Shown here: piece by piece, positions 1,766 through 29,774 of the stretch
Position numbering within the stretch: the stretch's first letter is position 1
How the letters are laid out: every line of letters begins with the position of its first letter
Assembly (NCBI GenBank): GCA_023512255.1
Contig: JAILZY010000003.1
Coordinates: 1-64,000 of the forward strand
DNA length: 64,000 bases
Source: a bacterium
Lineage (GTDB): Bacteria > SZUA-182 > DTGQ01
Direction: 5' to 3'
Program-made: the position numbers and the translations under genes
Notes under the pieces: model-generated
Databases searched by the model: none
What the model was told of the DNA's origin: nothing
The model's input: the letters and a program-made list of their open reading frames with translations, nothing else

Positions 1766-3796
1766 TTACACAGGTAGAGTGGGGGCATTGTTGGCCCGAA
1801 ATATGATCTCATCACCGCTTTGCAGGTCAACAATCTTTTCACATTGAAACTGCACCTTGTCCCACAAGATTTGAGGATGATATTCAGGTACAATCTCTTG
1901 CAATTTTAATTGGATTCCTCGACCATCCTGTCTTTGAGCTAGGCTAAGAAGCTCCTCAATCTTTTCTTTAAGCTCACGGGCTGATATTGCGCTCTTTTGG
2001 CCGTTGCTTCTCAAAACCATGAGCTTGTCATGAGAGGTGGGCACAATCCCCTCACCTTCAGTGATCAATTCCTCATAAAGCTTTTCCCCTGGCCTAAGTC
2101 CAGTGATCTCGATACGAATATCCTTATCAGGGATAAAACCGGACAGCCGGATAAGATCTCTAGCCATATCGAGGATTCTAATCGGTCTTCCCATTTTCAG
2201 AATATAGATATCTCCACTCTCTCCCATTGCTCCGGCCTGCAAGATAAGCTGAACCGCTTCACCGATGGTCATAAAGTAGCGGGTAACCTCTGGATGAGTA
2301 ACCGTTACCGGACCGCCATAAGCGATCTGCCTCTTGAAAAGAGGAATAACGCTGCCTGCACTCCCGATAACATTTCCGAATCGAACAGCCATAATCTTTG
2401 TCCCTGCCAATTTCCGCTGCCCTGCTGCCGCTCTTGCTGATTCTTCATGCTTAAGCTGAAGAATAATCTCAGCCACTCTTTTGCTGGCACCCATGACATT
2501 GGTTGGCCGCACTGCCTTATCCGTAGAGACCAGAACAAACCTTTCGGCTCTGGCCTCCAAGGCGGCCTCAAGGACATTGCTGGTGCCCAGGATATTATTA
2601 AAAACTGCCTCCCAGGGGTGAATCTCCATCATAGGTACATGCTTGTAGGCTGCGGCATGGAAAACCACCTGCGGATGATAGCGGTTAAATATCCCTTTGA
2701 GGCTATCCCGACAGGTTACGGATCCAAGGGCTGGAACCAAAATCTGCCGAGGATATAAGTGCCTTAACTCCATCTCAATCTCATACAAACTGCTTTCCGC
2801 CCGATCCATCATGATCAAAGCCCTTGGTTCAAATGCCATAATCTGGCGGCAAAGCTCAGAGCCGATCGATCCAGCAGCTCCAGTTACCAGAATACATTTG
2901 TCTTTCAAGTATGCGCCGATTCTTTCAATATCCAACTCGATCTGGCTTCTGCCAAGAAGATCAGCATATGAGACATCCCGAATAGCTGAAATGCTTACCT
3001 TATCATTCAGCAGCTCACCAATTGTGGGAATAGTCTTACAGTTCACCCCAGTCTGCTGACAAAGATCAATGATACGGCGCATCTGCTCTGCCGAGGCTGA
3101 AGGAATGGCAATCATAATCTCATCAACATCTATATTCCGAACTACAGAGGCAACATTTTCAATACCGTCCAACACCTTGATCCCGTGGATATGCCGGTGA
3201 ATCTTCCTGGGATTATCATCCAAAAATCCCACTACCTCATAGTGCACCAGGTCTCTATTATCATTGATCTCTCGCAAGATCTTCTCTCCCGCATCACCGG
3301 CCCCGACAATTAAGACCTTTTTTCTCTTCTTATGGCCACTACCACCATCTCCATTCCTCATCCAAGGGAGAGTCTCTTTTTTCCAGGAAGAAAAGAAAAG
3401 CCTAATCCCTAATCGACACCCACCAATGAGAAAAATCGTCAGCAGGCTGTCGATCAGGAATACGGACCGGGCAAAGCCGCGAAATCTGACAGCAGCAAAG
3501 GTGAGTAAAACCATGAATCCTGAGCTGACCAGAGAGGCTTTGATCAGATTCTCAAGGTCCTTGAGGCCTGTATAACGCCACATACCTTGATAGAGATGAA
3601 ATTGATAAAAAATGAAAATCTTGATCCCAATAAAGGGGATAAGGGTATATTTAAGGCTTGCCAGATATGGCAGGGGAGGAATTTTCAGATCAAAGCGCAG
3701 AAGATATGATCCGCCATACGAGATGGCCAAAAGCACAATATCGGTCAGGATAAGAAGAAAAAGATTTTTTTTAAACTTATGCTCTATCTTGGGCAT
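1766..3796 (-). CDS. FlaA1/PglF/WbpM-like nucleotide-sugar 4,6-dehydratase, membrane form
   Basis: This 676-residue protein matches the long membrane form of UDP-GlcNAc 4,6-dehydratases. Four N-terminal membrane helices span about residues 10-135. A first nucleotide-binding fold follows (GAGDAG near 165) and then the catalytic short-chain dehydrogenase fold (TGAAGSIG at 305-312). The active-site motif reads MGASK (Met435, Lys439), with Met in place of the usual Tyr, which is typical of this dehydratase family. It should make the 4-keto-6-deoxy sugar used by the aminotransferase and sugar transferase just upstream in transcription (PglF/PglE/PglC logic). A family A MITE sits directly after the stop codon. 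The exact sugar product is inferred, not seen. Confidence 0.88.
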   Translation of the reverse strand: MPKIEHKFKKNLFLLILTDIVLLAISYGGSYLLRFDLKIPPLPYLASLKYTLIPFIGIKIFIFYQFHLYQGMWRYTGLKDLENLIKASLVSSGFMVLLTFAAVRFRGFARSVFLIDSLLTIFLIGGCRLGIRLFFSSWKKETLPWMRNGDGGSGHKKRKKVLIVGAGDAGEKILREINDNRDLVHYEVVGFLDDNPRKIHRHIHGIKVLDGIENVASVVRNIDVDEIMIAIPSASAEQMRRIIDLCQQTGVNCKTIPTIGELLNDKVSISAIRDVSYADLLGRSQIELDIERIGAYLKDKCILVTGAAGSIGSELCRQIMAFEPRALIMMDRAESSLYEIEMELRHLYPRQILVPALGSVTCRDSLKGIFNRYHPQVVFHAAAYKHVPMMEIHPWEAVFNNILGTSNVLEAALEARAERFVLVSTDKAVRPTNVMGASKRVAEIILQLKHEESARAAAGQRKLAGTKIMAVRFGNVIGSAGSVIPLFKRQIAYGGPVTVTHPEVTRYFMTIGEAVQLILQAGAMGESGDIYILKMGRPIRILDMARDLIRLSGFIPDKDIRIEITGLRPGEKLYEELITEGEGIVPTSHDKLMVLRSNGQKSAISARELKEKIEELLSLAQRQDGRGIQLKLQEIVPEYHPQILWDKVQFQCEKIVDLQSGDEIIFRANNAPTLPV

Positions 3797-3981: not shown

Positions 3982-4578
3982 CTAAAAAACTATAGATTTA
4001 ATCGTTCTGAGGATCAGCACAAAATCAAGCCATAATGATCGCTCATGAACGTATCGCCGATAATAGGCAAGCTTTAGTGGTAAGATTCTTTCAATATAGT
4101 CCTTCTCTGGATCCTGAGACTGATTAAGTATCTCATTCTCATCTTTAAATTCAATCGAGGCAAAATCCGTAATCCCTGGGGGAACCGACAAAACAGCTTC
4201 CCTTATGGCCTGCGGATAAAAGGCCACATAGCGGGGAACCTCTGGCCGTGGACCAACCAGGCTCATGTGCCCAGCGATTACGTCAATGAGCTGCGGAAGC
4301 TCATCCAGCTTGTACTTGCGCAAGATATGACCTACTCTGGTGATTCGCCGATCGCTACTTATAGTAATTTTTAGCCCTTGACTTTCGGCATCCGCTCTCA
4401 TGGTTCGGAACTTATGAATCTTAAAAGGCCGCCCAAAGCGGCCCACACGTTCCTGGCGGAAAAAAACAGGGCCTTTTGAGTCAAGCTTGATCAGGATGGC
4501 AATCACTATCATAGCCGGCAGTAAAACTATCAACCCGGCTAAAGAGAAACAAAAATCAAAGATGCGCTTAGCGGTCAC
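3982..4578 (-). CDS. PglC-like undecaprenyl-phosphate sugar-1-phosphate transferase
   Basis: A 198-residue small monotopic phosphoglycosyl transferase (bacterial sugar transferase family, PF02397). It has an N-terminal re-entrant hydrophobic segment (about residues 10-30), then [16 protein letters not shown] and KIHKFRTM, and the late motif [10 protein letters not shown]. It transfers a sugar phosphate from a UDP-sugar to undecaprenyl phosphate on the inner membrane face, starting the glycan repeat. The length fits PglC rather than the long WbaP type. The GTG start overlaps the stop of the upstream aminotransferase (GTGA), so the two are translationally coupled. Confidence 0.9.
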
Positions 4579-5783
4579 TCAAGTAATTCTCTAACCGCGG
4601 TGATGACCCGCTCCTGATCCTTATCTGTCATTTTGGTAAAAAGCGGCAGGCTCACCGCTTGCTGGTAAGCAGAAAGTGCGTGGGGAAAATCCTGGGGTTT
4701 TAGGTGGTAAGTATTTTTCCAGTAGGGATGAAGGTGAAGAGGGATGAAATGCACGCTACAGCCAATTCCCTTGGCTGCCATCTGCTGAATAAAGGCTTCC
4801 CGACTCATCTTTAGCGACTCGTCAAGTCGGATAACGTAAATATGCCAGGCATGTAGATCTGCCCCATCAGGTGGGTGAGGCGGAAGCTTGAGGGGAAGGT
4901 CCTGCAACTGCGAGTCATAATACTCAACCAACTGAGTTCTCCGCTCATGGAATTTCCAAATTTTTTTGAGCTGATGAATGCCCAAAGAAGCGGCCAAATC
5001 AGACATATTGTATTTAAACCCAGGGGCGATCACCTCGTAAAACCAGGCAGGCTTAGTCGAGGTATATCGATCAAAGGCATCGCGGCTAATCCCGTGCAAG
5101 CGCATGATCCGGCAGCGCTCGGCTATGTCAGCATGCCGGGTTACAACCATGCCTCCCTCACCCGTAGCCAGGGTTTTGTTGGCGTAAAAGCTAAATACCG
5201 TAGCCTCGGTTTCCAGCGTACCAATCAATTTTCCCTGATAGCGAGTTGGCAGGGCATGGGCCGCATCTTCAACCACTTTCAGCCCATAGCGCCGGGCGAG
5301 ATCGATAATGGCCTCCATATTGCAGGAGAGCCCGGCAAAGTGGACTGGCAAAATAGCCTTGGTGCGCGGGGTAATAGCAGGCTCGATCTGCAATGGGTCA
5401 ATATTAAACGTAGCCGGATCAATGTCCACAAAAACAGGAGTGGCACCTAGATAGCGAATTACCTCAGCGGTGGCGGTAAAGGTGTATGGGGTAGTGATCA
5501 CCTCATCACCAGGGCCGATGCCGATCGCCTCAAGAGCCAGGTGCAAGCCTGCCGTACCTGAATTGACCGCAATCGCTTCCACTCCCTGGCCAAGAAATTC
5601 GGCAAAATCCTGCTCGAAACGCTTGGTCTTGGGCCCGGTGGTGATCCAGCCAGAGCGCAGAGAATCAACCACCTCAGCAATTTCCTCCGCACCGATGTCA
5701 GGCAGAGAAAAGGGTAAAAACTTAATCTCTTCAATAGCCTGAGTGCGAAATTGCTGTAGATCTCTCAGGGATGGCTTGGGCAT
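4575..5783 (-). CDS. DegT/DnrJ/EryC1 (PglE-like) sugar aminotransferase
   Basis: A 402-residue PLP-dependent aminotransferase of the DegT/DnrJ/EryC1 family. The N-terminal [13 protein letters not shown] motif, [10 protein letters not shown] and [11 protein letters not shown] are typical. The PLP lysine is Lys203 in [14 protein letters not shown]. It should aminate the 4-keto sugar made by the FlaA1-like dehydratase, giving a 4-amino-4,6-dideoxy sugar nucleotide. It overlaps the sugar transferase gene by four bases. No PglD-type acetyltransferase is nearby, so acetylation of the sugar is not predicted from this window. Confidence 0.88.
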
Positions 5784-14018: not shown

Positions 14019-15020
14019 TTAGCAGCCAGGCCCTCTCTGTCCACCTTCTTTTGCTGACCCCAATACCTGCGATATCTCCCTACCCGTTGGGGGCAATAAT
14101 CCCAAAATAACCCCTATAAGCTCATCCTGAGATTCTTGAAAGGTAAATAGATGATTCTCATTCTTAATGATAAATTTTCGATAACCTTTTTCGGCCCACT
14201 TCTTGGCAATTTTCTGCTCAAATTCCACTTCAAAATAAAGCTTCCACCGATCATACTCACCAAAGATAAAGTTAATCTCTATATATTTTTTAACCCTTTC
14301 TAAAACATCCAAAAATAACTTGTTAAAATTAGGATGGAGAAAAGATGGTGAATCCTTACTTACCGCTTGCCTCAAAACCTCAAGTAGCCGAGCCAGCAAC
14401 CTATGCAAGCCACGATCTTTGATATTTCTCACCAAAGACTTCCAGGCACTAAGGCTCAATACCTTAAAATTCATAAGGTTTGTGAGATAGCCTCTGACTA
14501 TATCCCGGGCATAAGCAGGAGCTATTGCTGCCTTCTCCTCAGCCTCAAGAAAATTAAAAAGCACTGGAAAGCTCAACAAAATAAGTGAGGTTAGCTTCTG
14601 ACGACAGTACGGCGCGGCAAGAAGAGCGGTCATTGCCCCACCGCACAGCCCAATAAGGATAATTTCCTCAAGGCCATATCTAGTGATAAAAAAGTCTGCC
14701 GCATCATTTACATCATTTATAAATCTCCCCTTGTTGATCGAGGTAAAAAGATTAAAAAGCATAGCCTCATCCACACTTCCTTCACTTTCGCCAATACCGG
14801 CAGGATCAAACCGCAAGGCATAGTAACCCTCCTGCGCCAACCTCCGGGCCAGCCTGACATAAAGCCTGCGGTGAGCAATCCTATAGCCTGGCCCAGGATT
14901 TAAAAAAATAACCCCTATTTTCCGTACCCTCTCATCATTACTGACTAATGGAAGATGAGCTACTCCAAAAAGCTCTTGATCCGCTCTATTCTTAAAGCTC
15001 ACCGGCTCTTCTCTGAACAT
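14019..15020 (-). CDS. Exosortase-associated type alpha/beta hydrolase 1
   Basis: A 333-residue alpha/beta-fold protein. VIFLNPGPGYRIAHRRLYVRL followed by RFDPAGIGESEGS resembles the exosortase A system-associated hydrolase 1 family. The nucleophile elbow reads GLCGGA, with Cys in place of the usual Ser, as I recall for that family. It sits next to a second hydrolase of the paired type, 41 bases away. Such pairs accompany exopolysaccharide/PEP-CTERM loci, but no exosortase is in this window. The substrate is unknown; thioesterase or transferase activity is possible. Confidence 0.72.
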   Translation of the reverse strand: MFREEPVSFKNRADQELFGVAHLPLVSNDERVRKIGVIFLNPGPGYRIAHRRLYVRLARRLAQEGYYALRFDPAGIGESEGSVDEAMLFNLFTSINKGRFINDVNDAADFFITRYGLEEIILIGLCGGAMTALLAAPYCRQKLTSLILLSFPVLFNFLEAEEKAAIAPAYARDIVRGYLTNLMNFKVLSLSAWKSLVRNIKDRGLHRLLARLLEVLRQAVSKDSPSFLHPNFNKLFLDVLERVKKYIEINFIFGEYDRWKLYFEVEFEQKIAKKWAEKGYRKFIIKNENHLFTFQESQDELIGVILGLLPPTGREISQVLGSAKEGGQRGPGC

Positions 15021-15061: not shown

Positions 15062-15889
15062 CTATCCTAGCCACGAGAGTGTCTTTTCAAAGAGCGATCT
15101 TGAGCTGGTTATATATCTTTGGTTCGTTCCTTTTAGAATCCAAAAGGGATCATCTTGGATCACCACCCTAAGACATTGATTATTATCTTTAAAAACCAGA
15201 TCAAGCTCTCCATTTTTTTCACTATCCACCTTATTTGATATCTCTACCAGCAAAACCCTACTCTCAGGCCGTAGCCTTATTGTCTTTAGGTTAATATCAA
15301 AGAGGCTCTGATAGAAATCCTTGACCATTACATAACCTTCTACCACTACGGGGGTATTATTTTTTATCTGTTCGATAAGCTGAGCTCGATTAAATTTTAT
15401 CCTTTTGTGTACGATTCCCTGAATGGTCAGATTTGATCTTAGCGAATCATAGAGATACTCCCCAACATCTATGACCGGAGACCACAAAATAAGCCCCTCT
15501 ACTCCTATCTCTTTTGCAGCCACTAAAGAGGCAAAAACAGCCCCTAGCCTTAATCCTAACAAATAAACCTCTTCTACCTTTGCCTCCTGAGTTAAAAATT
15601 CAATAGCTTCTTTCGTATCAGAAAGATAGCTCTCTAATCGTGTACTCTCAAAATCTCCCTCACTATCACCATTTCCATAGTAGTCAAACAAAAAGGCCAC
15701 ATAGCCATTGGCTTGAAGGAGTCTAGCAAAATTAACCAATACTCGGTGAGAAAAATATTTTTCACTCCCGATTGAGTCGCAAAATATAACCCCTTTGCGA
15801 TTATTGGCATTTTTTACCCTCGGCTGGAAGAGAAAGCCAAAGAGATGATAATTATTTTCTTTATTTTTAAAAAATAGCGGCTTGGTCAT
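15062..15889 (-). CDS. Exosortase-associated type alpha/beta hydrolase 2
   Basis: A 275-residue alpha/beta-hydrolase-fold protein with FDYYGNGDSEGDFE and an elbow reading GLRLGA, where Arg replaces the nucleophile Ser. This pattern is what I recall for exosortase A system-associated hydrolase 2, so the protein may not be a classical serine hydrolase. Its start overlaps the end of the upstream pyruvyl-transferase gene by 23 bases, so the two are co-translated. It probably works with hydrolase 1 on a glycan-locus intermediate, which is inference from neighbours. Confidence 0.7.
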   Translation of the reverse strand: MTKPLFFKNKENNYHLFGFLFQPRVKNANNRKGVIFCDSIGSEKYFSHRVLVNFARLLQANGYVAFLFDYYGNGDSEGDFESTRLESYLSDTKEAIEFLTQEAKVEEVYLLGLRLGAVFASLVAAKEIGVEGLILWSPVIDVGEYLYDSLRSNLTIQGIVHKRIKFNRAQLIEQIKNNTPVVVEGYVMVKDFYQSLFDINLKTIRLRPESRVLLVEISNKVDSEKNGELDLVFKDNNQCLRVVIQDDPFWILKGTNQRYITSSRSLFEKTLSWLG

Positions 15890-17027: not shown

Positions 17028-18302
17028 TCATTTCCTAAGATTTTGACATTTATCTCCATCAACAATAATCTCTTTTAAATATCTTCCCGCATCCATAGCT
17101 AGATTCTGAATTTTTGGAAGCACCGATTCAATCTTCTTTTTTATTCCACCTGAGTTTTGAATTAATTCTTCTATTCGCTCAGCAACAATCTCAGGTTTTA
17201 ATTGATGCGGCCCCAAGCAGTAATCTTCATGTCCAAAGATATCTCGATTTATACCCTTGGCTTTAATACTATAAGCAAAACTTAAGGTTGGTACCAAAGA
17301 AGAGATAGCCGCAATAGTGGCATGCGTCCTTGCCCCGGCAAAAGCAGACATTTTCCCTATTACCCACTTCAATTCAGAGGCATTTAAGCCAGGCGGAATT
17401 AATCTGATTTCCTCGCCATTTGGCTTGCCAACCGCGGCCAACACAGTCTTCAAAAATTCATAATCATCTCTTTTTGGAATAGTTACGTGATAGATTAAAA
17501 ATAGAGGTCGCTTAGTCTTCTCTGATACCTGTCTTATAATTTTAGTGCATTGCTCAACCCATTTTTGAAGGTTACCATCGGCTGCATATTTGGCCATCAG
17601 CGGGCTTAAATTTATCCCAATAGCTCCTTCTGGAATATCGAGATTAAACTTTTCCCCCGAAGGCCTTGTCGCCTTCAAAAGAAAGGCTGGATCAGCTACC
17701 CTATAAACTTGCTTTATGATACCGTGCTCAGCTAAATACTCAATTGTTACTGACTCCCGGGCAAATATTGCCGTTACCCTTTTCAGGTGCTCAATCATAT
17801 ATCTTTCATATTCCGGGATTCTGTCAAAGGGACCAACCGAAGCTCCCCAAATTACCATTGGCTTTCTCTTCGCCAAGACTACTTCATCTAATTCAGTAAA
17901 ACGCACGGGTATCCCATAATCCAGAGAGTAGTTATCTCCGCCAACCGATAACACCGCGGCCGCTTTTTTAAGATAAGGCAGCATCTCTTGATAAAGAATA
18001 TACCGCTTTCCAGGGGGATATAAGAATCGGGCTAATATCCATAAAAACCAGTCAAACTCAAATTTTTTTAAAGGCTTCACCCTCTTATGGATTATAGCCG
18101 GATCTATTTCACTTAGCTTTTGTCGTTTAAGTTGACTACAGGAGGTATAATTACTTACAGCCACAAAGTGCGGATCATTAAAGTAGTGCCGCAAAATCTC
18201 AACCGTTCCCCTGATAATCGCCTCACAACCTCTATTCTCATAAGGGCCATTGCCGGCTAGAATAAAAAGAGATTTTCTATCTTGCATCATCTTCACCTTC
18301 AT
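17028..18302 (-). CDS. Polysaccharide pyruvyl transferase family protein, second copy
   Basis: A 424-residue PF04230 family protein. It has GNGPYENRGCEAIIRGTVEIL at the N-terminus, SVGGDNYSLDYG in the first domain and GARTHATIAAIS in the second, where the conserved RxHxxI motif is expected. It is only distantly like its neighbour at 15867-17006, so the two probably modify different sugars. It starts inside the stop codon of the F420-hydrogenase-beta-like gene (ATGA overlap). That pairing recurs in many polysaccharide loci. Confidence 0.85.
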   Translation of the reverse strand: MKVKMMQDRKSLFILAGNGPYENRGCEAIIRGTVEILRHYFNDPHFVAVSNYTSCSQLKRQKLSEIDPAIIHKRVKPLKKFEFDWFLWILARFLYPPGKRYILYQEMLPYLKKAAAVLSVGGDNYSLDYGIPVRFTELDEVVLAKRKPMVIWGASVGPFDRIPEYERYMIEHLKRVTAIFARESVTIEYLAEHGIIKQVYRVADPAFLLKATRPSGEKFNLDIPEGAIGINLSPLMAKYAADGNLQKWVEQCTKIIRQVSEKTKRPLFLIYHVTIPKRDDYEFLKTVLAAVGKPNGEEIRLIPPGLNASELKWVIGKMSAFAGARTHATIAAISSLVPTLSFAYSIKAKGINRDIFGHEDYCLGPHQLKPEIVAERIEELIQNSGGIKKKIESVLPKIQNLAMDAGRYLKEIIVDGDKCQNLRK

Positions 18303-19720
18303 ATCCTTCCAATCTTTCGTACCCTGCCAATCTCTCGAGCCACCTTTCTAATTTCCCTTGCTGGAAGCCGCACGATCCGACCAAACCTAGCCCAATTTTC
18401 TAATTCAGTCACCAGTCGGTCCATCTTGTCTGAAAAAGTCTTCAAATTTCTCTCCCCGCCATCGGTGCACTGCAAGAATAGCTCTCTGCTTAGCTCTTGC
18501 ATCTTGTCCTTTAATTCTATTTCCTTTCTGGTGAAAAAATTGGCCTCTCCTGATGGAGCTTCCCTTTTGGTTGGCACAACTGCTCCTTTTTGCTTGGCTA
18601 GATAAAGCCTGTAGGCAAGTTTATTTCTCTTAACATTCAAAACGCCTAATTGTGACTGGATAATCCGATCGATTGAAATTCTCTTTCCCTCAAGCTGGCC
18701 TTCCTCAATTCCTGACTCTATGGCCTGGCGAAGAAGCGGTACCCTGACAATGATTAAATTTGTTCCCTTCCAGTCTACGATATATTCCGGCAACCAGGCA
18801 TCCATTAAAACTACATCTGCTAATTCGGCAAATACATCATCACAAAAGCTGCAAGCCCTGGGTGTGAACCAGCGATTGTTCCAAACCTTGTCTATCCCAT
18901 CTCTACAAAACAATTTCCCCTGGTTATTTTCTTGGTCAGTACACTGAAAAAAATAATTGTTTGCTGGTACTCCAAGGGGCTTTCCCCTAAAATTCACCTC
19001 CAAAAGTGGTCCCCTGACTCCGGCTAAAAACGCAAGATAGGAGGTATAATGCTTGCTCTTCATTTGTCCGCATACCAGCCCAATAGTAATCCTAATCCGA
19101 TCCCTCAATTTTTTATTTTTTCTCGCCGCTAGCCGCAAACCCTTAATAAAGCAAGGCAGCCCACTAATAGCATAACGGCCCTCATTTTCAATGATATACC
19201 TCACCACTTCAGACATCTCAACCGGATAATAGGCTGATCTTGCAGAGCGTCGAATTGGCTCAAAAGTATCAAAGACAGCAAAACGAAACAGCTTTTCCGG
19301 CTCCTGATGAGGAGTAACACATATTACATAGTCGATGATCCGCTTAGCCAGCAAAGTCTCTAGCAGCCAGGTTGCCACTCCGCCCGAGGCCCCATTAGCC
19401 CGATGGTCGCAAACCTTGGAATAGCCAACATAAGAATCAAGATAATACCCTGTTTCTGGCCGATGTTTTATCCCCTCAATATTTCCAAAGATTATCTTGG
19501 CTAAACTATCCTCATTCTCTTCCTTATCACTAAAAGGGCAAACCTGAAAACAAAGACCACAATTTTCAAAACAATCTGAATTTCTCCTAACCGGGTTATA
19601 TTCACCATAAAGGTTAAATTCCATCACCAATCCTTGAGTGGGACACAAGCCAGCACATACCCCACAGCCAATGCATAGATTATTTTGCTTAATTATTTCA
19701 GCAGAATTGGGCACATTCAT
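18299..19720 (-). CDS. Coenzyme F420 hydrogenase/dehydrogenase beta-subunit family protein with two 4Fe-4S clusters
   Basis: A 473-residue protein. Near the N-terminus lie two ferredoxin-type cysteine sets (CIGCGVCAGLCP and CFENCGLCFQVCP), followed by the FrhB-type N- and C-terminal domains, including GASGGVATWLLETLL and RACSFCDDVFAELADVVL. In glycan loci these proteins pair with pyruvyl transferases. The redox partner is unknown and F420 itself need not be used. I prefer the ATG at 19720 because GGAG lies eight to eleven bases upstream; a longer frame from GTG at 19744 is possible. The C-terminal 70 residues are charged and helical. Confidence 0.83.
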   Translation of the reverse strand: MNVPNSAEIIKQNNLCIGCGVCAGLCPTQGLVMEFNLYGEYNPVRRNSDCFENCGLCFQVCPFSDKEENEDSLAKIIFGNIEGIKHRPETGYYLDSYVGYSKVCDHRANGASGGVATWLLETLLAKRIIDYVICVTPHQEPEKLFRFAVFDTFEPIRRSARSAYYPVEMSEVVRYIIENEGRYAISGLPCFIKGLRLAARKNKKLRDRIRITIGLVCGQMKSKHYTSYLAFLAGVRGPLLEVNFRGKPLGVPANNYFFQCTDQENNQGKLFCRDGIDKVWNNRWFTPRACSFCDDVFAELADVVLMDAWLPEYIVDWKGTNLIIVRVPLLRQAIESGIEEGQLEGKRISIDRIIQSQLGVLNVKRNKLAYRLYLAKQKGAVVPTKREAPSGEANFFTRKEIELKDKMQELSRELFLQCTDGGERNLKTFSDKMDRLVTELENWARFGRIVRLPAREIRKVAREIGRVRKIGRI

Positions 19721-19751
19721 GGGAAAGTCTCCGTGTTGACACACCTAGCCG

Positions 19752-21293
19752 CTAACTACACAGGCTTATCGCCACTCTTATCTTGTCGCCGATCACACAA
19801 CTTTTTATTAACTCCCGCTGCCGCGGAGAAAAGATGAAAAAGTAGCATATTGGCAGAAATACCACTACCGACAGGCCAGCAGTAAGAAAAATATTTAAAT
19901 AACTTGGCCCAAGATAGCCCCTTATCAAAAACCAATATCCCAAAATAGGCATAATAGTCTTAATCGCCGGTCTAAGGAGGTTATCAAAAAAATATTCCTT
20001 ACAGCTTACCCCAATTATCCGACAAACATAGAAGGGTTGAAAAAATAGCTTAGCCACTGCCAATGGAATCAGAGTACCCAAGGCAACACCATAGATGCCC
20101 AAATATCTGACCAATATCAGGCTCAATATGAGATTGGCTATCCCCTCACAGCTACTTAAAATAGCCAAATAGCGATGTTTTGAGATCCCATAGAGCAGCC
20201 CAATGCTAGATCCTTGAGCCAAGGCTATGGTTATGGGCAGACAGAGAATGATTAGCACATAATAGCTATCGTGATATCCTGCTCCCATCCATCGTTCGAT
20301 AAACACCTTACCATACAAAATAAGGCTGCTTCCAACAAATACAGCTAGAATTACCCCTATTTTTGTGGCTTCCAAAAAGGCTTTCTTTACTGCCTGTATA
20401 TCACCCCGGCCTTCATACTGGCTAAACACCGGAGCTAACATACCAAGAGCACTTGACATAAATTGGAAAAAAAGATCAATCAGCTTAGTGGCAATAAAAT
20501 AGTGAGTAACCAGACTAACACTCAAGTAGCCAGCAATCACAAACTCATCTACCCTGAATCTCAATAGGTCCGCAATCTCCTGCAAAAAGGTAAATAAAGC
20601 ATATTGAAAAAGCTCCCTAACCTTGCCCAAACTAACCCAGATTAGGCCAAACCTAAGCTCCCTAAATTCTCTTACCAGCAGCCCAAAATAGGCCGCATCA
20701 CCCAGGATCTCCACCAGAAAGGTTATCAACGCCAAGGCTAAGATTCCTCCTCCCGCCTTGATAAAATAAACAATCAGCGCAGTCCGAATAACAAGTTTCA
20801 GAAAATCCACACCTGCCAAAAGATCATACCTTAGCTTTGAGTGTAAAACCCCGACGAAGCTCCTGACCGGAAAGCCAAGAGCCAGACTAAATCCTAAAAT
20901 CAGAATAACCCTCCTGAAGAGAAGAATTTCAGCCTGATGTTTAATAAAGTGTGGGCACAGCAAGGCTGCCAGGAAAGAGAGACCTAAAGCCACTAGCCCA
21001 ATCAGACTAAACAGAGCAAGGGAGGTATTAAAGATATAATTTATTTCTTCAAAATCATTCTGCCCCCAAGCCCTTGACACAAACCTTGAGACAGCCGAAG
21101 ACAGGCCAAGATCAAGCACACCATAGTAGCCCATGAATCTTCCAATCAACACCCAAAAGCCATGCTGCCTGTCCCCCAGGGCATGTACCAGAAAGGGCAC
21201 CAAGAAAAATGAGACCACAATGCTGCAAAATAGCAGACTTACCCTCAACAGAGAGCCGGAAATCAACTTTCTAACTACTGTTTTTGAATCCAT
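19752..21293 (-). CDS. Wzx-type oligosaccharide flippase (MATE/MVF superfamily)
   Basis: A 513-residue membrane protein with about 14 hydrophobic helices. It has the N-terminal layout of polysaccharide flippases (FFLVPFLVHALGDRQHGFWVL, then GRFMGYYGVLDLGLSSAVSR). It should move lipid-linked repeat units across the inner membrane so that the Wzy-like protein can polymerise them. It lies between the tyrosine kinase and the F420-hydrogenase-beta-like gene with short spacings, in one leftward operon. Confidence 0.88.
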   Translation of the reverse strand: MDSKTVVRKLISGSLLRVSLLFCSIVVSFFLVPFLVHALGDRQHGFWVLIGRFMGYYGVLDLGLSSAVSRFVSRAWGQNDFEEINYIFNTSLALFSLIGLVALGLSFLAALLCPHFIKHQAEILLFRRVILILGFSLALGFPVRSFVGVLHSKLRYDLLAGVDFLKLVIRTALIVYFIKAGGGILALALITFLVEILGDAAYFGLLVREFRELRFGLIWVSLGKVRELFQYALFTFLQEIADLLRFRVDEFVIAGYLSVSLVTHYFIATKLIDLFFQFMSSALGMLAPVFSQYEGRGDIQAVKKAFLEATKIGVILAVFVGSSLILYGKVFIERWMGAGYHDSYYVLIILCLPITIALAQGSSIGLLYGISKHRYLAILSSCEGIANLILSLILVRYLGIYGVALGTLIPLAVAKLFFQPFYVCRIIGVSCKEYFFDNLLRPAIKTIMPILGYWFLIRGYLGPSYLNIFLTAGLSVVVFLPICYFFIFSPRQRELIKSCVIGDKIRVAISLCS

Positions 21294-21325: not shown

Positions 21326-24184
21326 CTATCTTTTATGATAATAATCCCCATACTTATAATAGCTATAGTAGTAGCCGCCATCCTTTTTCAAATCTAGTCG
21401 GTTCAAAACCACGCCGAAGATCCGAGCGCCAATACTATCTAGCTGCTGTTTAGCCTTTATAGCCACATCGCGATCAACCCGACCCACAAAGACCACCATA
21501 ATCACCCCATCGGCTAGCGAGGCTAAAATAGAGGCGTCAGTAACCGACGTGATGGGCGGAGAATCCATGATAATATACTCAAACCTACCCCTCAAAATAC
21601 GCATCAGAGCCCTCATGCGCCTAGAGCTCAGAAGCTCAGAGGGATTTGAAGGCAATGGCCCTGAGGTCAAAACCTTCATATTATCCACAGGACCGCTCTG
21701 GATAATGGAAAATATACTCCTCTCCAGGAAAGGAGTAGCCTGGCTGTCAATAACCTCATGCCAGGTGAGCAAACTCTCACTCAGCCAATTATCCTCCCTT
21801 CCCCTGAGGCTGCCCCCAACAGGATATCCTTCAGTAAAGGTAAAATACCCCCTCTCCAGGGTAAATATCCTCTTCAGGACTGAAGAAAAATGCAGCCCCA
21901 GCGGCCCTCTTAGATCATCTTGAGTAATCAGATTCATATTAAGAAGAATAACCCCAAGTTTTTCCCCATAATCCTCCTGTTGCCGCAAGGCCTTTCTCCT
22001 CTGCTCATCTGTGATCCTGCCGCCAGCCACCAGAATAGCTCCAAGCCGCTCTTCCTCCGGACGATCTATCCATTGGGCATCAATCAGCTCTCCGCCTCTA
22101 AAAGAAAGCTGAAAATTTTCCGCATAACCCGACGAGATACTCAAAACCCCGCTTTTCCCCTGAATATTGACCAAATTGATCACATCGGCCAGACTGTATT
22201 CCTCCAGACTGCCCTCAGTGAGGCTAGTATTAAAAACATCAACCAGGATGTTAATCAAACCCTTGTTACCACGCTCTATCTTAAATTTTTTATGCACTGA
22301 TGGTACCCTAAGATCAGTATCGATCAGAAGGACCTGGGCACCTGCCTGGGCCAGGATCAAAGACAAATTGGCCGCTGTGGTTGACTTTCCTTCCTGAGGA
22401 ATGCTGCTGGTAATCAGGATAACCTTGCTTTTGGCCTCACTGCCTCCACAGTAGATAAGATTTGTCCTCAAACTTCGATAGGCCTCAGAAAATGCTACCG
22501 AGCAGTGCCCTTCGCTGACCAGAGGGAATTCCCCACGAGCTGATTTCCTTAGCTTTTGGCCTATCTTCTTGCTGCTGCTTTCACTATTTTCAGGAATAAT
22601 GCCCATCACCGGAAGTTGCAGATAGTGTTTAACATCTTCCTCAGTTCTTATCTGAGTCTCAACATGCTCTAAAATAAATACAAGGCCCAAGCCGCCCATC
22701 AGCCCCAGGATAAAAAATCCCAGAACAATGCTCACTTTTTTCTGCATACCAGAAGGAGATTGGGGTATCTGAGCTGGCTCTGTTATCCTGATATTGCTCT
22801 TCTTCATGGTTTCATTTATCTTGGTTTCCTTGAGCTTGTTCAGCAACACTTCATAGAGAGCCTTGTTGGTTTCAACCTCACGCTCAAGCATGGCATAGGT
22901 AATCTCTATCTTATTATCAGCCAAAGCCTCGGCCTCTAATTTGGCCATAGCTGCCTGAAGGGTATCCTCCCGGGCCTTTAGAACATCATCCTGAAGACGA
23001 AGCCCTTGCAAGGATTTCTCCAAGGTAGCGTTAAATTCCTTCTTGAGAATTTCAATCTTGCTGGCCGCATCCAAAACCTCAGGGTGCTTGTCTTTGTAAT
23101 CCCGCCTCAAGTTGTCCAGCCGAATGCTTTCCTCTGACAACTCTCGGCTCAGGTCCACCAGGAGCGGATTGTCCACAATCTCCTTGCCCAATATCCTGTC
23201 TTTTCTCCTATTGAGTAGGCTTTCAAGCTCCATAACCTTGGCTTGAATAGCCATCCTTTCAGTATGAGTTTTGATATAAGCATCATTCAGCTCACTGATC
23301 TTTCCACTGATAAGATCCTTTCTTTCCCGAATCGAATAGATTTTATTATTAGCCTTAAATTCAAAAAATTTTTTCTCCGAATCATCTATTTTTTGCCTCA
23401 TCTCAGCAACCTGAACCGAAATCCAGTCTATGAACTCCTTAACTGAGCGATACCGCAAGGAGGTATCATAGTCAATATAGCTCCTGACCAGAGCATTGGC
23501 TATGGCCGCAGCCCAAGTCGGGCTCTCATCACTTACCGTGATTGTAACTAGCCTCGTATCCCGCACAGGCTTCACCTCTATCTTGCTAGCCAGGGCCGCG
23601 ATTAGAGAGGCTGTCTGCTGATCGGGCAAATCCCCTTGGCTAAAGGCCAAAAGAGGAGGAAGATCCTTCTCTACCTGCTGCTTATTGGCCTGGCAGGAGC
23701 TACCTAAGCCTAAAAAATTCCAAACAGTCTTGACATTCTCCCTAATCGCGGTCTTAAACTGCGGCAGAAAACCGGCCTGAGTACGAAGCTCTGCCGCCTT
23801 TTTCTGCTGCTGGCGCTCTCGAAGTCCCAACCGGTTGACCACCTGCTCCAGAACCTGATAACTGGTAATGATTTTCAGTTGAGTGTTAAAGGTCAACTCT
23901 TCTGATAAGGCGGTCTCATAATATATATATTCCATGCTCTCGCCAGTAACTGGAGATCGGTTAATCTCCTTGTCAATAATAATCTGGCACTGAGACTGAT
24001 AAATAGGCACCATGGTCTGAACAAAAATAATGGCCGTCATGACGCTGACCAGGGTACAGGCGATCAAAATCCACTTGCGCTTGCGGATAACCTTCAGATA
24101 ATCCAAAAGGTAAACTTCCTTGACCTGATCGATGCCATTGGTAAGAAGATATTCCTCAGAGGAGTGCTCTTTCATCTGTTCCAT
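21326..24184 (-). CDS. Wzc-type polysaccharide co-polymerase tyrosine kinase with an inserted DUF4388/MshEN-like module
   Basis: This 952-residue protein has a Wzz domain with two membrane helices (about 37-57 and 483-506), a long periplasmic coiled coil (about 245-460) and a BY-kinase ATPase. Walker A is SSIPQEGKSTTAANL (593-607), Walker A' is LLIDTDLRVPS (619-629), Walker B is YIIMDSPP (870-877), and the tyrosine tail YYYSYYKYGDYY (938-949) is the expected autophosphorylation site. Between Walker A' and VLTSGPLPSNPSELL about 170 residues are inserted. They resemble a DUF4388/PATAN sensor (GKSGVLSI...FRGGELIDAQW) followed by MshEN-like helices (RLGAILVAGGRITDEQ and KLGVILLNMNLITQDD). I chose the ATG at 24184; a TTG farther upstream is possible. 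It controls export and chain length with the neighbouring SLBB protein. Confidence 0.88.
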   Translation of the reverse strand: MEQMKEHSSEEYLLTNGIDQVKEVYLLDYLKVIRKRKWILIACTLVSVMTAIIFVQTMVPIYQSQCQIIIDKEINRSPVTGESMEYIYYETALSEELTFNTQLKIITSYQVLEQVVNRLGLRERQQQKKAAELRTQAGFLPQFKTAIRENVKTVWNFLGLGSSCQANKQQVEKDLPPLLAFSQGDLPDQQTASLIAALASKIEVKPVRDTRLVTITVSDESPTWAAAIANALVRSYIDYDTSLRYRSVKEFIDWISVQVAEMRQKIDDSEKKFFEFKANNKIYSIRERKDLISGKISELNDAYIKTHTERMAIQAKVMELESLLNRRKDRILGKEIVDNPLLVDLSRELSEESIRLDNLRRDYKDKHPEVLDAASKIEILKKEFNATLEKSLQGLRLQDDVLKAREDTLQAAMAKLEAEALADNKIEITYAMLEREVETNKALYEVLLNKLKETKINETMKKSNIRITEPAQIPQSPSGMQKKVSIVLGFFILGLMGGLGLVFILEHVETQIRTEEDVKHYLQLPVMGIIPENSESSSKKIGQKLRKSARGEFPLVSEGHCSVAFSEAYRSLRTNLIYCGGSEAKSKVILITSSIPQEGKSTTAANLSLILAQAGAQVLLIDTDLRVPSVHKKFKIERGNKGLINILVDVFNTSLTEGSLEEYSLADVINLVNIQGKSGVLSISSGYAENFQLSFRGGELIDAQWIDRPEEERLGAILVAGGRITDEQRRKALRQQEDYGEKLGVILLNMNLITQDDLRGPLGLHFSSVLKRIFTLERGYFTFTEGYPVGGSLRGREDNWLSESLLTWHEVIDSQATPFLERSIFSIIQSGPVDNMKVLTSGPLPSNPSELLSSRRMRALMRILRGRFEYIIMDSPPITSVTDASILASLADGVIMVVFVGRVDRDVAIKAKQQLDSIGARIFGVVLNRLDLKKDGGYYYSYYKYGDYYHKR

Positions 24185-24228
24185 ACACAATTTACCTTCT
24201 AACAAAAAAGTTTCAACAAGATGAAACC

Positions 24229-25176
24229 TTACCAGAAAGATTCTGGCACATTCAACCTGTCCCCAGGTTTTAGCTTAAAGTCAGCAGCTTGGCCACTTTT
24301 TATCTTGTTAAGATCTATCTTATAAACAATATCTTTCCCATCAATATTTCTGATGAGCGTAGCCTTCTGAGGAGCCGCTCGATCAGAAAACCCCCCAGCT
24401 ATAATACAAAGGCTCAAGGCGGTCAGCCCGTTTTGATACTCATAAGATCCAGGCCTAGCCAAACAGCCAGTGATATAAACCCGCTGCTGATTGATGTCAG
24501 AATCTTTCTGGGCCTCTACGATAATCACATCCCCTGAGCTTACCAAAAATCTTTCGGAAAGATCTCTCTTTTGCACAAGCTGATCAATATCTATGACCAG
24601 CGCGTCTTTTTGACCGACCGATCCCACGATCTCAGCTACTGACACACCTTCCCGCTGCTTAGGATCGAGAGCATTATGAAAAAGTGTTATTCTCTTTCCA
24701 GCCCTATCCGTAATTCCACCAGCCTGAGCTATGATTTCAAGAAGTGTGGTTCGGCCAGTGAGCACATAAACGCCTGGGGATTTGACCTCACCCCAGACAA
24801 TAACCTTCTGGCTGTTATATTTTTCTATACTTACGAAAACCTTTGGATCAACCAAATAATCTTTACCTAAAAGGTCCGTAATCTTCTGCTTAATCTCTTG
24901 AACCGTCAGCCCCGAGACCGTAACCTCCCCAATCAATGGGAAATTTATCAGCCCATCATCTGAGATAGTAAAGAGAGCATCTATGCCCGGCTTTCCCGCG
25001 ACAGTGATTCTGAGAACATCCAAAGGGCCAACCTTGTAGGCCTCATCCCCAAGAGAGGCAGCCGCGGCAGCCGCCTGATTGAAATTAATTGCGCATATAT
25101 AAAATAAGATAAATATAAATAACATACATAGAGAGAGAATAAATTTTTTAATATTCATGAGCTTGATTTTATCCAT
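24229..25176 (-). CDS. Wza-like polysaccharide export protein (SLBB domains)
   Basis: A 315-residue export protein. A signal peptide (hydrophobic about residues 10-33, then an alanine run) is followed by the Poly_export domain (YKVGPLDVLRITVAGKP) and two SLBB segments (VIVWGEVKSPGVYVLTG and VYITGCLARPGSYEY). It should form the outer-membrane or periplasmic channel for the glycan and dock on the tyrosine kinase encoded next. No lipobox cysteine is evident, so it may not be a lipoprotein like E. coli Wza. It lies between the ligase gene and the kinase gene with gaps of 12 and 44 bases. Confidence 0.9.
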   Translation of the reverse strand: MDKIKLMNIKKFILSLCMLFIFILFYICAINFNQAAAAAASLGDEAYKVGPLDVLRITVAGKPGIDALFTISDDGLINFPLIGEVTVSGLTVQEIKQKITDLLGKDYLVDPKVFVSIEKYNSQKVIVWGEVKSPGVYVLTGRTTLLEIIAQAGGITDRAGKRITLFHNALDPKQREGVSVAEIVGSVGQKDALVIDIDQLVQKRDLSERFLVSSGDVIIVEAQKDSDINQQRVYITGCLARPGSYEYQNGLTALSLCIIAGGFSDRAAPQKATLIRNIDGKDIVYKIDLNKIKSGQAADFKLKPGDRLNVPESFW

Positions 25177-25188
25177 TTTCCCTTTTAC

Positions 25189-26451
25189 TTAACCACGAGC
25201 CGATCCACCCGCGACCAGACCACCAAGAACCACACAAATAATGGCATTGGCCATCGGATGCAAGGCAAACTCTACCAGCGAATGAATCGAGATGGCAAAC
25301 ATACTCCCAATTATCCCGAGCACGAGCTGCTGCACCCTTCGACTCTTGGCCCGCATATACACCCTAGCGGCTGCCAGAAAAAAACTGACCTGAATCCACA
25401 AGATGATCAGCAGCGAAAATCCCCCACATTCCGATATGGTTTGAAGATATTCACTGTGGGCATACCGATCTCGTAAATTGCCGCTGTACTTCTTTACGTA
25501 GCCGTCAAACAAAAGAGGAAAAGTACCGGGCCCGGCTCCAAGTAAAGGATAAGAGCGAACAATATCCCAGGTTCCTCTCCAGATCGGGACTCTGCCACTC
25601 ACACTCTCAATTCTTCCCCTATCAGCTAATCCGATCAGCTCACGTCTTATCTTGACATAGCCCAAAAGCACAATTAACAGTAAGATAACTCCAATCGCCA
25701 ACAAAATACTCAACAAATAAAGACTAGATAAATAAAGACTAGATGGTTTGCTTAAGTTATATCTATTATATTGATAAAGGCAGGCCATCAACCCCAGGGC
25801 GCAGAGGAGAGACACCCAGGCTCCCCTCGATAGAGTAAGAGCCAGAGCCACCATCATGATGCATATACCGTAGCCAATCAAAATCTTTTTCCCCACATCA
25901 GCCACAGTCATCATCATCACCAGGGCAACAGGTATGACCATAGCTAAATAAGCCCCAAAAGGATTTGGATTATCATAGGTAAACTTAAGCATTTCCGCCG
26001 ATGATCTCAAGTAGATGATAATCCCTGCCAAAGCCGCCAAGCTTCCCGCAGCAATGATAGTATAAATAATCAGACTTACCCGCTGGGTATCTTTCAGCCG
26101 AACCTTATTAGCTACCAGATAATAGAGAGCAATATAGTCAAAAAAGTTTAGAAGAGTCAAAAAACTCCTGCTGGCTGATACGGAAAATAGTGCGGAAGTC
26201 ACCGACAGAATGACAAAAATAAAGATAGGATAATCCAGCGACGTGTGAACAAAAGATACCCTACCCCTGCTAATGATATCGAATCCCCACAACAAGAGTA
26301 ATCCAAAAACCAGGGTATGAACTAGCCATACCCTAGGCCCTCTCTCAACTCCCCCAGCTAAGGGCGTAACCACAAGGAGAATCATGAGAATAAGGATAAT
26401 CAAGGTGTCAATCTTGCTGGCCGATCTGAAATCAGAACCCACTCTCGACAT
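25189..26451 (-). CDS. O-antigen ligase/polymerase family membrane protein
   Basis: A 420-residue membrane protein with about 11 helices and the Wzy_C-type periplasmic loop LLGAGPGTFPLLFDGY, followed by RYAHSEYLQTISECGG. The AHSEYLQ histidine motif is typical of the O-antigen ligase family. It is the first gene of the leftward glycan operon, directly after the repeat-rich non-coding region, so the main promoter probably lies between 26452 and about 26700, although I could not identify it. It shares no close similarity with the Wzy-like protein at 9.7 kb. Confidence 0.85.
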   Translation of the reverse strand: MSRVGSDFRSASKIDTLIILILMILLVVTPLAGGVERGPRVWLVHTLVFGLLLLWGFDIISRGRVSFVHTSLDYPIFIFVILSVTSALFSVSASRSFLTLLNFFDYIALYYLVANKVRLKDTQRVSLIIYTIIAAGSLAALAGIIIYLRSSAEMLKFTYDNPNPFGAYLAMVIPVALVMMMTVADVGKKILIGYGICIMMVALALTLSRGAWVSLLCALGLMACLYQYNRYNLSKPSSLYLSSLYLLSILLAIGVILLLIVLLGYVKIRRELIGLADRGRIESVSGRVPIWRGTWDIVRSYPLLGAGPGTFPLLFDGYVKKYSGNLRDRYAHSEYLQTISECGGFSLLIILWIQVSFFLAAARVYMRAKSRRVQQLVLGIIGSMFAISIHSLVEFALHPMANAIICVVLGGLVAGGSARG

Positions 26452-27576: not shown

Positions 27577-28734
27577 ATGTCTCCTAAGAGGCAAAATAAT
27601 AGCCAAACTTTGATAGCCAAATCTCTCGATGAGAAGCTCCGGTCAATGGATCAGTCAAAACTCATCCAGACCGTAAAACAACTCTCGCTGGAGAATGAAC
27701 AGCAAAAAGGAATAATTCGCTATCAAAAGGAGGAGATTCAAAGTCTGACTGACCGCCTCCTGAGTGCAGAAAAGCAGTTAATCAAAAGTACAGAAAAGCA
27801 GCTGATCAACCAGGAGTGTCAAGATGCCTCTCTCTGCTCCCCAGGAGAGGGAGAAGGCCAAGGCCCAAAGCGCCACCTCCTGACTACCTCCCTATCCCCA
27901 CCTGGTGGAGAGGAAGCTGTGGGAAGCTTGCTGCCACTCCTTGAGGCCATAGAAGATGGCGCACCCTCAGGGAGAAGGAAGGGAAGCAGACTGCACCAGT
28001 TGCTGGCCGAGGCCTTTTTGAATAAAAATTCTGGCTCTTATCGCCTAGTCAACACCTTCTTGGTCGGGTTGATTCTCTTTTCCGTGATCAGTGTCACTTT
28101 GGAGTCAGTGCCCTCGGTAGCCAAGCGATGGGAGGGCTTCTTTCACTGGTCAGAGCTAATTATTGTTGGGCTATTCACTATTGAATACCTGATCAATATC
28201 TTGGTAGCTGAAGATAAGCTCGGCTACATATTCGGACTCTGGGGATTGATTGACCTGATCGCCATCTTGCCTTCCTATTTTCACCTCATGGATCTTCGGG
28301 GTATAAAAATGGCCAGAACCTTGCGCATTGTCCGTTTTCTGCGGACGATCAGAATGATGCGGATCCTGAAGCTAGCTAAAAATACCACCGATCAGTATCA
28401 GCAAAGTGCCAGGCAGCGGATCCATACCCTAAAGCTCGATCTTCAGATCTACCTCACTGCCCTGTTTACCGTAATCATAATTTTCAGCACCCTAATCTAT
28501 TATGCGGAACGAAACACCCCCGGCACCCCTTTTACCAGCATACCTGCGGCCATGTGGTGGTGTGTGGTTACCATCACTACGGTCGGCTATGGGGATATGT
28601 ATCCCGCTACCCTAGGGGGAAAGCTTATCGCGGCCACAGCTATGATCATGGGGCTTGCTCTTTTTGGCATCCTCATGAATGTCATCGGAAAGGCCATGAT
28701 GACCTCTCTTTTTGGAACCACTGAACTTGATTGA
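27577..28734 (+). CDS. Voltage-gated-type potassium channel, copy 1
   Basis: A 385-residue six-helix channel of the ion transport family. A cytoplasmic coiled coil (about residues 20-75) and a low-complexity linker precede S1-S6. The S4 voltage sensor is the arginine ladder RTLRIVRFLRTIRMMRILK. The pore carries the potassium filter TTVGYGD (335-340). It is followed immediately by a close paralogue in the same orientation. The linker (about 80-145) is where the two copies differ most. I see no strong ribosome-binding site, so the ATG start is likely but not proven. Role: potassium efflux or membrane-potential control. Confidence 0.9.
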   Translation: MSPKRQNNSQTLIAKSLDEKLRSMDQSKLIQTVKQLSLENEQQKGIIRYQKEEIQSLTDRLLSAEKQLIKSTEKQLINQECQDASLCSPGEGEGQGPKRHLLTTSLSPPGGEEAVGSLLPLLEAIEDGAPSGRRKGSRLHQLLAEAFLNKNSGSYRLVNTFLVGLILFSVISVTLESVPSVAKRWEGFFHWSELIIVGLFTIEYLINILVAEDKLGYIFGLWGLIDLIAILPSYFHLMDLRGIKMARTLRIVRFLRTIRMMRILKLAKNTTDQYQQSARQRIHTLKLDLQIYLTALFTVIIIFSTLIYYAERNTPGTPFTSIPAAMWWCVVTITTVGYGDMYPATLGGKLIAATAMIMGLALFGILMNVIGKAMMTSLFGTTELD

Positions 28735-28742
28735 GGATATTT

Positions 28743-29774
28743 ATGTCGGCTAAAAAGAGAATATCCAAAATTGATCTTACCGATCAAGGAATGCGGCCAA
28801 AGAGTAAACAGGAGCTGCTCCAAGCCATCGAGCGTCTGTCTGAAGAAAACGAGCGGCAGAGAGGAATAATTCAATATCAGAGGGAGGAGATTCAGACCCT
28901 GACCCGCCGCCTTCTGGATTTGGAAAGGCAGATGGATAGTCAAATCGCCCACTCCTCTCAAGAGGTGGGAGCGCTGCTGCCACTGCTAGAGTCAATGGAA
29001 GAGCCCCCTCCCCCAAAAAAGGGCAGCAAGCTGCATCAAATATTAAGTGATGCCTTTCTCAATAAAGACTCTCGATCCTATACCGTGGTCAACAACTTCC
29101 TGGTAGGGCTGATCCTTTTTTCCGTTCTTGGTGTTACTCTAGAATCCGTGCCTTCGCTCATGGATAGATGGGGAGCTTTCTTCTATTGGTCTGAGCTGAT
29201 TGTGGTCAGCCTGTTTACCGTCGAGTATCTTATCAATATCTTCGTGGCTGAAAACAAGCTCGGATACATCTTCAGCCTCTGGGGACTGATTGACCTGATC
29301 GCCATCCTGCCTTCCTATTTTCACCTCATGGATCTTCGGGACATCAAAATGGCTAGAACCTTGCGGATTATCCGCTTCCTGCGAACGATCAGGATGATGC
29401 GGATTCTGAAACTGGCCAAAAGCACCGCTGATCGCTACCATAAGAGCGCCCGCCAGCGCATAAATACCTTGAAATTGGATCTACAAATCTATGCCACTAC
29501 TCTATTTAGTGTAATCATAATTTGCAGCACTCTAATCTATTATGCGGAACGTAACACCCCCGGCACCCCTTTTACCAGCATACCTGCGGCCATGTGGTGG
29601 TGTGTGGTTACCATCACTACGGTCGGCTATGGGGATATGTATCCCGCTACCCTAGGGGGGAAACTCATCGCGGCCGCAGCTATGATCATGGGACTTGCTC
29701 TTTTTGGCATCCTCATGAATGTCATCGGAAAGGCCATGATGACCTCTCTTTTTGGAACCCCAAAGCTTGATTGA
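28743..29774 (+). CDS. Voltage-gated-type potassium channel, copy 2
   Basis: A 343-residue paralogue of the preceding channel with the same order: coiled coil (about 20-70), S1-S3, S4 ladder RTLRIIRFLRTIRMMRILK, pore filter TTVGYGD (293-298) and S6. I start it at ATG 28743, where TGAGGAT gives a ribosome-binding site overlapping the stop of copy 1; a TTG four codons earlier is less likely. Its last 240 bases are almost identical to those of copy 1, while the N-terminal halves have diverged, so recombination has probably kept the pore region alike. Adjacent paralogues could form heterotetramers. Confidence 0.9.
   Translation: MSAKKRISKIDLTDQGMRPKSKQELLQAIERLSEENERQRGIIQYQREEIQTLTRRLLDLERQMDSQIAHSSQEVGALLPLLESMEEPPPPKKGSKLHQILSDAFLNKDSRSYTVVNNFLVGLILFSVLGVTLESVPSLMDRWGAFFYWSELIVVSLFTVEYLINIFVAENKLGYIFSLWGLIDLIAILPSYFHLMDLRDIKMARTLRIIRFLRTIRMMRILKLAKSTADRYHKSARQRINTLKLDLQIYATTLFSVIIICSTLIYYAERNTPGTPFTSIPAAMWWCVVTITTVGYGDMYPATLGGKLIAAAAMIMGLALFGILMNVIGKAMMTSLFGTPKLD

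Follow-up and report, generated by a model that had tools for sequence, protein, structure and literature searches.

A PATAN domain with a nested MshEN-like element inside the kinase core of a Wzc-type tyrosine kinase

In the 64,000-nucleotide stretch of bacterial DNA analysed here (the window), a Wzc-type tyrosine kinase (BY-kinase) carries, inside the nucleotide-binding core of its kinase part, a PATAN (DUF4388) domain into which an MshEN-like helical element is itself inserted. We favour, with moderate confidence, the reading that this composite domain entered a BY-kinase loop in a common ancestor of the genes that now share it, and was kept, most likely as a regulatory input domain. How cells start and stop the Wzc kinase cycle is still largely an open question. 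A signalling domain in each subunit, together with insert-free paralogues in the same genomes, offers a natural plus/minus comparison.

Results

A Wzc-type kinase gene in a polysaccharide locus

The wzc-like gene (Table 1) is listed with a TTG start, an in-frame ATG being present at residue 8, and its orthologue in G002, a genome of the same genus, is 78% identical. By every sequence test made, its product is a Wzc-type BY-kinase. Walker A (with GKST), Walker A', Walker B, the EX2RX2R motif, which has a role in the octamer interface of BY-kinases (PMC3795738), and the tyrosine tail were all found in the sequence and the alignment, and the match to TIGR01007 reached 179.9 bits for a cut-off of 108. 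The statement of the initial annotation that the catalytic motifs and the tyrosine tail are intact is therefore correct. The protein resembles the Wzc/CapB kinases (TIGR01007) in all these elements, in its Wzz and GNVR domains, and in its neighbourhood of Wza-, Wzx- and Wzy-type genes. It differs from them in the stretch from Walker A' to PxNPxEL, where about 172 extra residues form a PATAN domain.

Table 1. Features of the kinase gene and of its immediate neighbours (window positions).
Feature	Position	Strand	Basis
Wzx-type flippase, directly downstream of the wzc-like gene	19752..21293	-	PF13440, PF01554
wzc-like gene, 959 aa: co-polymerase (PCP) and BY-kinase with inserted PATAN	21326..24205	-	ORF, profile matches
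Tyrosine-rich C-terminal tail GGYYYSYYKYGDYYHKR	21329..21379	-	sequence
Walker B IIMDSPP, residues 878-884	21554..21574	-	sequence, kinase alignment
Conserved VLTSGPLPSNPSELL	21629..21673	-	sequence, kinase alignment
Whole insertion, ~172 residues net, about residues 657-828	21722..22237	-	Walker A'-PxNPxEL spacing versus ordinary BY-kinases
Variable tether, residues 796-827, from PATAN to second kinase half	21725..21820	-	48% identity to G002
DUF4388/PATAN, residues 664-795, with MshEN-like element nested inside	21821..22216	-	PF14332, AF2 model of the domain alone
MshEN-like 53-residue element: motif I 720-743, 5-residue spacer, motif II 749-772	21890..22048	-	NF053729, 5htl fold match, motif scoring
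Walker A' VLLIDTDLR, residues 625-633	22307..22333	-	sequence, kinase alignment
Walker A SSIPQEGKS, residues 600-608	22382..22408	-	sequence; TIGR01007 and PF13614 matches
EX2RX2R ring-interface motif EAYRSLR	22466..22486	-	sequence
GNVR domain, residues 439-511	22673..22891	-	Pfam PF13807, 50.2 bits
Wzz chain-length determinant domain, residues 31-125	23831..24115	-	Pfam PF02706, 33.3 bits
Wza-type export protein, directly upstream of the wzc-like gene	24229..25176	-	PF02563 Poly_export and SLBB
Wzy/O-antigen-ligase-type membrane protein	25189..26451	-	PF04932 Wzy_C

Together with the Wza-, Wzy- and Wzx-type genes, further neighbours coding for pyruvyl transferases and glycosyltransferases identify a Wzx/Wzy-type polysaccharide locus. 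Between a pyruvyl transferase gene and the flippase gene lies one for an FrhB/FdhB-like iron-sulphur protein (18299-19744, minus strand). Two other minus-strand genes (14019-15020 and 15062-15889) code for a pair resembling the exosortase-A-associated hydrolases 1 and 2, at 72 and 97 bits, below the cut-offs, and this pair suggests that the locus is related to exosortase-linked polysaccharide clusters. A 676-aa protein (1766-3796, minus strand) has one part matching an N-terminal region of sugar-phosphotransferase type and another matching a UDP-sugar dehydratase of the PseB/FnlA type, and a PseC-like aminotransferase is encoded at 4575-5783. On the other side of the kinase gene, two overlapping tandem paralogues (27577-28734 and 28731-29774, plus strand) resemble voltage-gated potassium channels and have the TVGYGD filter; the orthologous locus of G002 adjoins a similar channel pair (L079, 8265-9314 and 9483-10517).

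The insertion lies within the kinase core

The spacing between Walker A' and PxNPxEL is 218 residues in the window kinase and 214-219 in six other insert-bearing kinases, whereas nine BY-kinases of this phylum that lack the insert have 46 or 47 residues there. This bears out the earlier claim of an insertion within the BY-kinase core. Insert-free BY-kinases with 46 residues at this place are present in the same genomes as the insert-bearing ones. Positions 21710-22225 (minus strand) code for about residues 661-832 of the 959-aa ORF. When the protein is aligned with CapB, the matched blocks stop at query residue 656 and restart at 836, as CapB advances only from 142 to 151, leaving about 179 query residues between the blocks versus about 8 in CapB. 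The insertion site is found after the GLxxIL helix following Walker A' and before the IIQxGPVxNxxVL segment; judged by sequence, it is the loop behind this helix. The known RK-cluster insert of BY-kinases is at a different site, where the kinase domain begins (PMC3795738). That the insert stands beside the nucleotide site, as had also been written, is not supported in that form: the AF2 model of the kinase with its insert, made from a three-row alignment (the window sequence and related loci only), has a mean pLDDT of 43, and its kinase part, mostly under 50, is of low confidence.

One PATAN domain with an MshEN-like insertion

Profile searches placed both DUF4388 and NF053729, each above its cut-off, within the inserted segment. 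DUF4388 (Pfam PF14332) scored 61.3 bits in the whole protein and 67 bits with the segment alone, for a gathering cut-off of 25. The NCBIfam profile NF053729 ('c-di-GMP_motif, MshE-related') scored 43.1 bits in the whole protein, for a cut-off of 38, at residues 720-766, the match spanning profile positions 1-47 of 53. The DUF4388/PATAN and MshEN-like identities first proposed thus stand, but not their layout as two adjacent modules: PATAN followed by MshEN was rejected, because both the mapping of the DUF4388 profile and the AF2 models show nesting.

Modelled alone with AF2 (three rows; mean pLDDT 74), the insert starts with a strand and a helix, continues with three strands and a helical bundle, and closes with a strand. 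The best structural match of the bundle is c-di-GMP-bound MshE (5htl; Z 8.5 over 59 residues, 2.5 A, 30% identity), a Z under 13 being weak evidence by itself for a helical bundle, and the sequence profiles agree with the match. PilF GSPII-B is the other leading structural match, and a longer AF2 model gave the same leading matches, 5htl having Z values of 8.5 to 8.8 across models, best of the rows in each. Foldseek returned no match under E 0.001, with PilF and MshE domains at the top of its list. Because of the profile matches, we consider the MshEN part to be more than a generic helical bundle.

According to these models, the insert is a single PATAN domain in which an alpha-helical, MshEN-like insertion precedes the last DUF4388 strand. 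In the C90 paralogue, positions 49-75 of the DUF4388 profile match each MshEN repeat in turn, so that the profile itself seems to include such a helical hairpin. The PATAN domain was reportedly described with an alpha-helical insertion, in the title of Makarova et al. 2006 (a reference given in PMC7690835), and the insertion known from that title corresponds here to the MshEN-like helices.

Comparison with known proteins

By profile, the insert belongs to the same Pfam family as the PATAN/DUF4388 proteins PatA, PixE, PixG and LsiR. The PATAN proteins of the cited papers are fusions with CheY-like receivers that act on pili or on heterocyst pattern, whereas here the domain lies within an enzyme core. 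With MshE and PilF GSPII the nested element shares the four-helix fold and two 24-residue motifs separated by a 5-residue spacer; unlike them, it has at least two key positions changed per repeat and is nested in DUF4388. A BY-kinase with an MshEN-like repeat pair is also seen in the EpsG tyrosine kinases (TIGR03029), the N-terminus of which matches the MshEN part of the window insert (E 5e-5). However, the element is N-terminal in EpsG and inside the core here, and the window kinase, at 118.8 bits, does not reach the EpsG equivalog cut-off of 313.8. The pairing of an MshEN-like element with a BY-kinase is therefore already known from EpsG, and what is new is that the element sits within the nucleotide-binding core and on a PATAN scaffold. 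Our literature search gave no paper combining DUF4388 with a tyrosine kinase or with MshEN, and among papers naming both MshEN and a tyrosine kinase, none is, by its title or abstract, about such a kinase.

Seven copies in one clade

Sought in homologues, as the initial annotation had advised, the same insertion was seen in seven genes of four genomes: G000 (C32, C90), G002 (C87, C83), G003 (C420, C238) and G004 (C120). Across nine genomes of the phylum, no gene other than these seven BY-kinases has DUF4388. Co-polymerase and kinase are fused in C32, C87 and C120, and are encoded by two genes in the other four copies. In a tree of the kinase core built without the insert, all seven fall into one clade (support 100/100), which fits a single insertion before the fused and split layouts separated. 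The last Arg of EX2RX2R is gone in three of the four split kinases (L017, L018, L019 and L021 were compared; Q, H and C replace it), whereas the fused kinases retain it.

Between the window and G002 copies, dN/dS in the insert was 0.07 (first PATAN part), 0.23 (MshEN part) and 0.08 (last part), comparable with values elsewhere in the protein, where the co-polymerase and first kinase half gave 0.09-0.16; all are rough figures, as synonymous sites are near saturation. Identity to G002 is 73-87% in the kinase and PATAN parts (for the tether, see Table 1). By these sequence comparisons, the insert domain is under purifying selection and the tether diverges freely, the pattern expected of a folded domain plus linker. 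Since seven related genes retain the domain, we regard the insertion as a real, selected feature. The source genome is a draft in 172 contigs, which is the point in favour of a chimera or misassembly; but such an artefact, or a decaying insertion, is extremely improbable, being refuted by conservation in independent genomes, where seven intact copies in a single clade, purifying selection and the retention of all catalytic motifs speak for a conserved, selected fusion; the initial annotation, too, had judged against decay.

Beyond the phylum, a narrow contig scan with two strict peptide patterns, which leaves occurrence in other phyla possible, gave only two loci, both in CSMAG_2299, a MAG labelled Pseudomonadota the kinases of which have the same sequences as those of the same-family genome G003. 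No relatives were found in viral contigs and plasmids.

Discussion

The element has several marks of an MshEN receptor: two 24-residue motifs, a 5-residue spacer, an NF053729 score above cut-off and a four-helix bundle like that of MshE. It may be asked, then, whether it binds c-di-GMP and gates the kinase directly, so that the second messenger would set polysaccharide export. We hold this to be possible, though somewhat unlikely. In its favour, six of the seven copies score above the NF053729 cut-off, the fold matches those of c-di-GMP-bound MshE and PilF GSPII-B, and the genome holds 12 GGDEF matches and one EAL match, as well as 11 MshEN matches outside its two inserted kinases. There is also a precedent in NfrB, an exopolysaccharide synthase placed under c-di-GMP through its MshEN element, which controls polysaccharide production (PMC8669469); NfrB, however, is a glycosyltransferase with a conserved binding motif and measured binding, and the window protein is a kinase. 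MshE contacts c-di-GMP through R1, L2, G3, L17, L21 and Q24 of each motif (PMC5013675). In the inserted kinases conservation is higher at these pocket positions than elsewhere in the element (0.74 versus 0.53, a value equalled or exceeded by 59 of 2000 random position sets), R1, L21, Q24, L2' and L21' being invariant. For canonical MshEN domains of the phylum the corresponding values are 0.73 and 0.33, none of 2000 random sets being as high.

Against direct gating, neither of the two 24-residue motifs satisfies the relaxed consensus used by Wang et al. 2016 (PMC5013675; an MshEN motif consensus is also given in PMC11731258). The window copy agrees at 9 of 11 positions in each motif, and in every copy each of the two motifs misses at least two. 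Six of the seven copies have R, Q or K at position 17 of motif I, the guanine-stacking Leu of MshE, and motif II has, in all seven, Asn at position 10 and His at position 24, where Gln makes a phosphate contact. In the most distant copy, that of G004, the two key glycines are replaced by Glu and Ser, and the second Arg by Ser. PilF GSPII-A, a degenerate MshEN in which motif I has His at position 24 and motif II differs at five positions, shows no c-di-GMP binding, and repair of the consensus alone was insufficient for binding by the full domain (PMC12002112). Some deviations are nevertheless tolerated, as PilF GSPII-B binds at 6 nM without arginines (PMC11731258). Given the motif deviations on one side and this tolerance on the other, binding in the window protein is possible, would likely be weakened, and is not assumed here; as the consensus is not matched, we did not file the protein as a c-di-GMP receptor. 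For the gating of export by a second messenger that was initially suggested, this means that the MshEN fold is upheld, and that gating as stated is not, with motifs off consensus and key glycines missing in G004. The full proposal, in which a c-di-GMP-responsive PATAN-MshEN in the BY-kinase core directly switches the tyrosine phosphorylation cycle controlling chain length and export, is in our view unlikely.

The regulatory reading that we prefer leaves room for either a partner protein or a small ligand. In BY-kinase rings, each subunit phosphorylates the tyrosine tail of its neighbour. The ring loosens as phosphorylation proceeds, greater ring stability is accompanied by more polymer, and capsule output is controlled by the state of the ring together with phosphorylation of the tail (PMC11986026). 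A domain on each subunit would be well placed to change phosphorylation or ring loosening on binding a partner or ligand. We propose that, in the Wzc ring, each kinase subunit bears its own folded input domain, for docking or sensing, which a short link would hold at one end and a variable tether of about 30 residues at the other. This domain would bind a partner protein, as in the PATAN-PilB case of cyanobacteria, or a small ligand; binding would alter ring assembly or access to the tyrosine tail, and through these the autophosphorylation cycle on which chain length and export depend. PATAN regulators work through contact with PilB1, the pilus motor (PMC12288463; PMC9090330), and by this analogy a protein partner is no less likely than a nucleotide. 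The inserted kinases have a new invariant signature, NxNL...GPLxLH, lying mostly outside the nucleotide pocket, which would fit a conserved contact surface or packing. No obvious partner gene was found in the neighbourhood of the wzc-like gene. If the insert senses c-di-GMP or a pilus partner, biofilm signalling would be linked to Wzx/Wzy export at the enzyme itself.

As a counterpoint, the insert domain could be structural only, a spacer that anchors the kinase ring to another envelope machine (for instance a type IV pilus, or the cell pole) and leaves kinase activity unchanged. The protein contacts through which PATAN domains work in cyanobacterial pilus control (PMC7690835; PMC12288463) would agree with such an anchor, as would the position of the invariant signature; but the insert interrupts the nucleotide-binding core and is not at a terminus, an odd place for a pure anchor, and no candidate anchoring partner was identified. 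We therefore find the spacer unlikely, and retain a regulatory input domain as the most probable role.

The phylum also has an EpsG-like kinase (L082, G005 C56) whose N-terminus bears a pair of MshEN-like repeats. Its Walker B region reads VVIVNVPSF, with the Asp replaced, and its C-terminal tyrosine tail is absent; the gene adjoins an exosortase-like gene and a co-polymerase.
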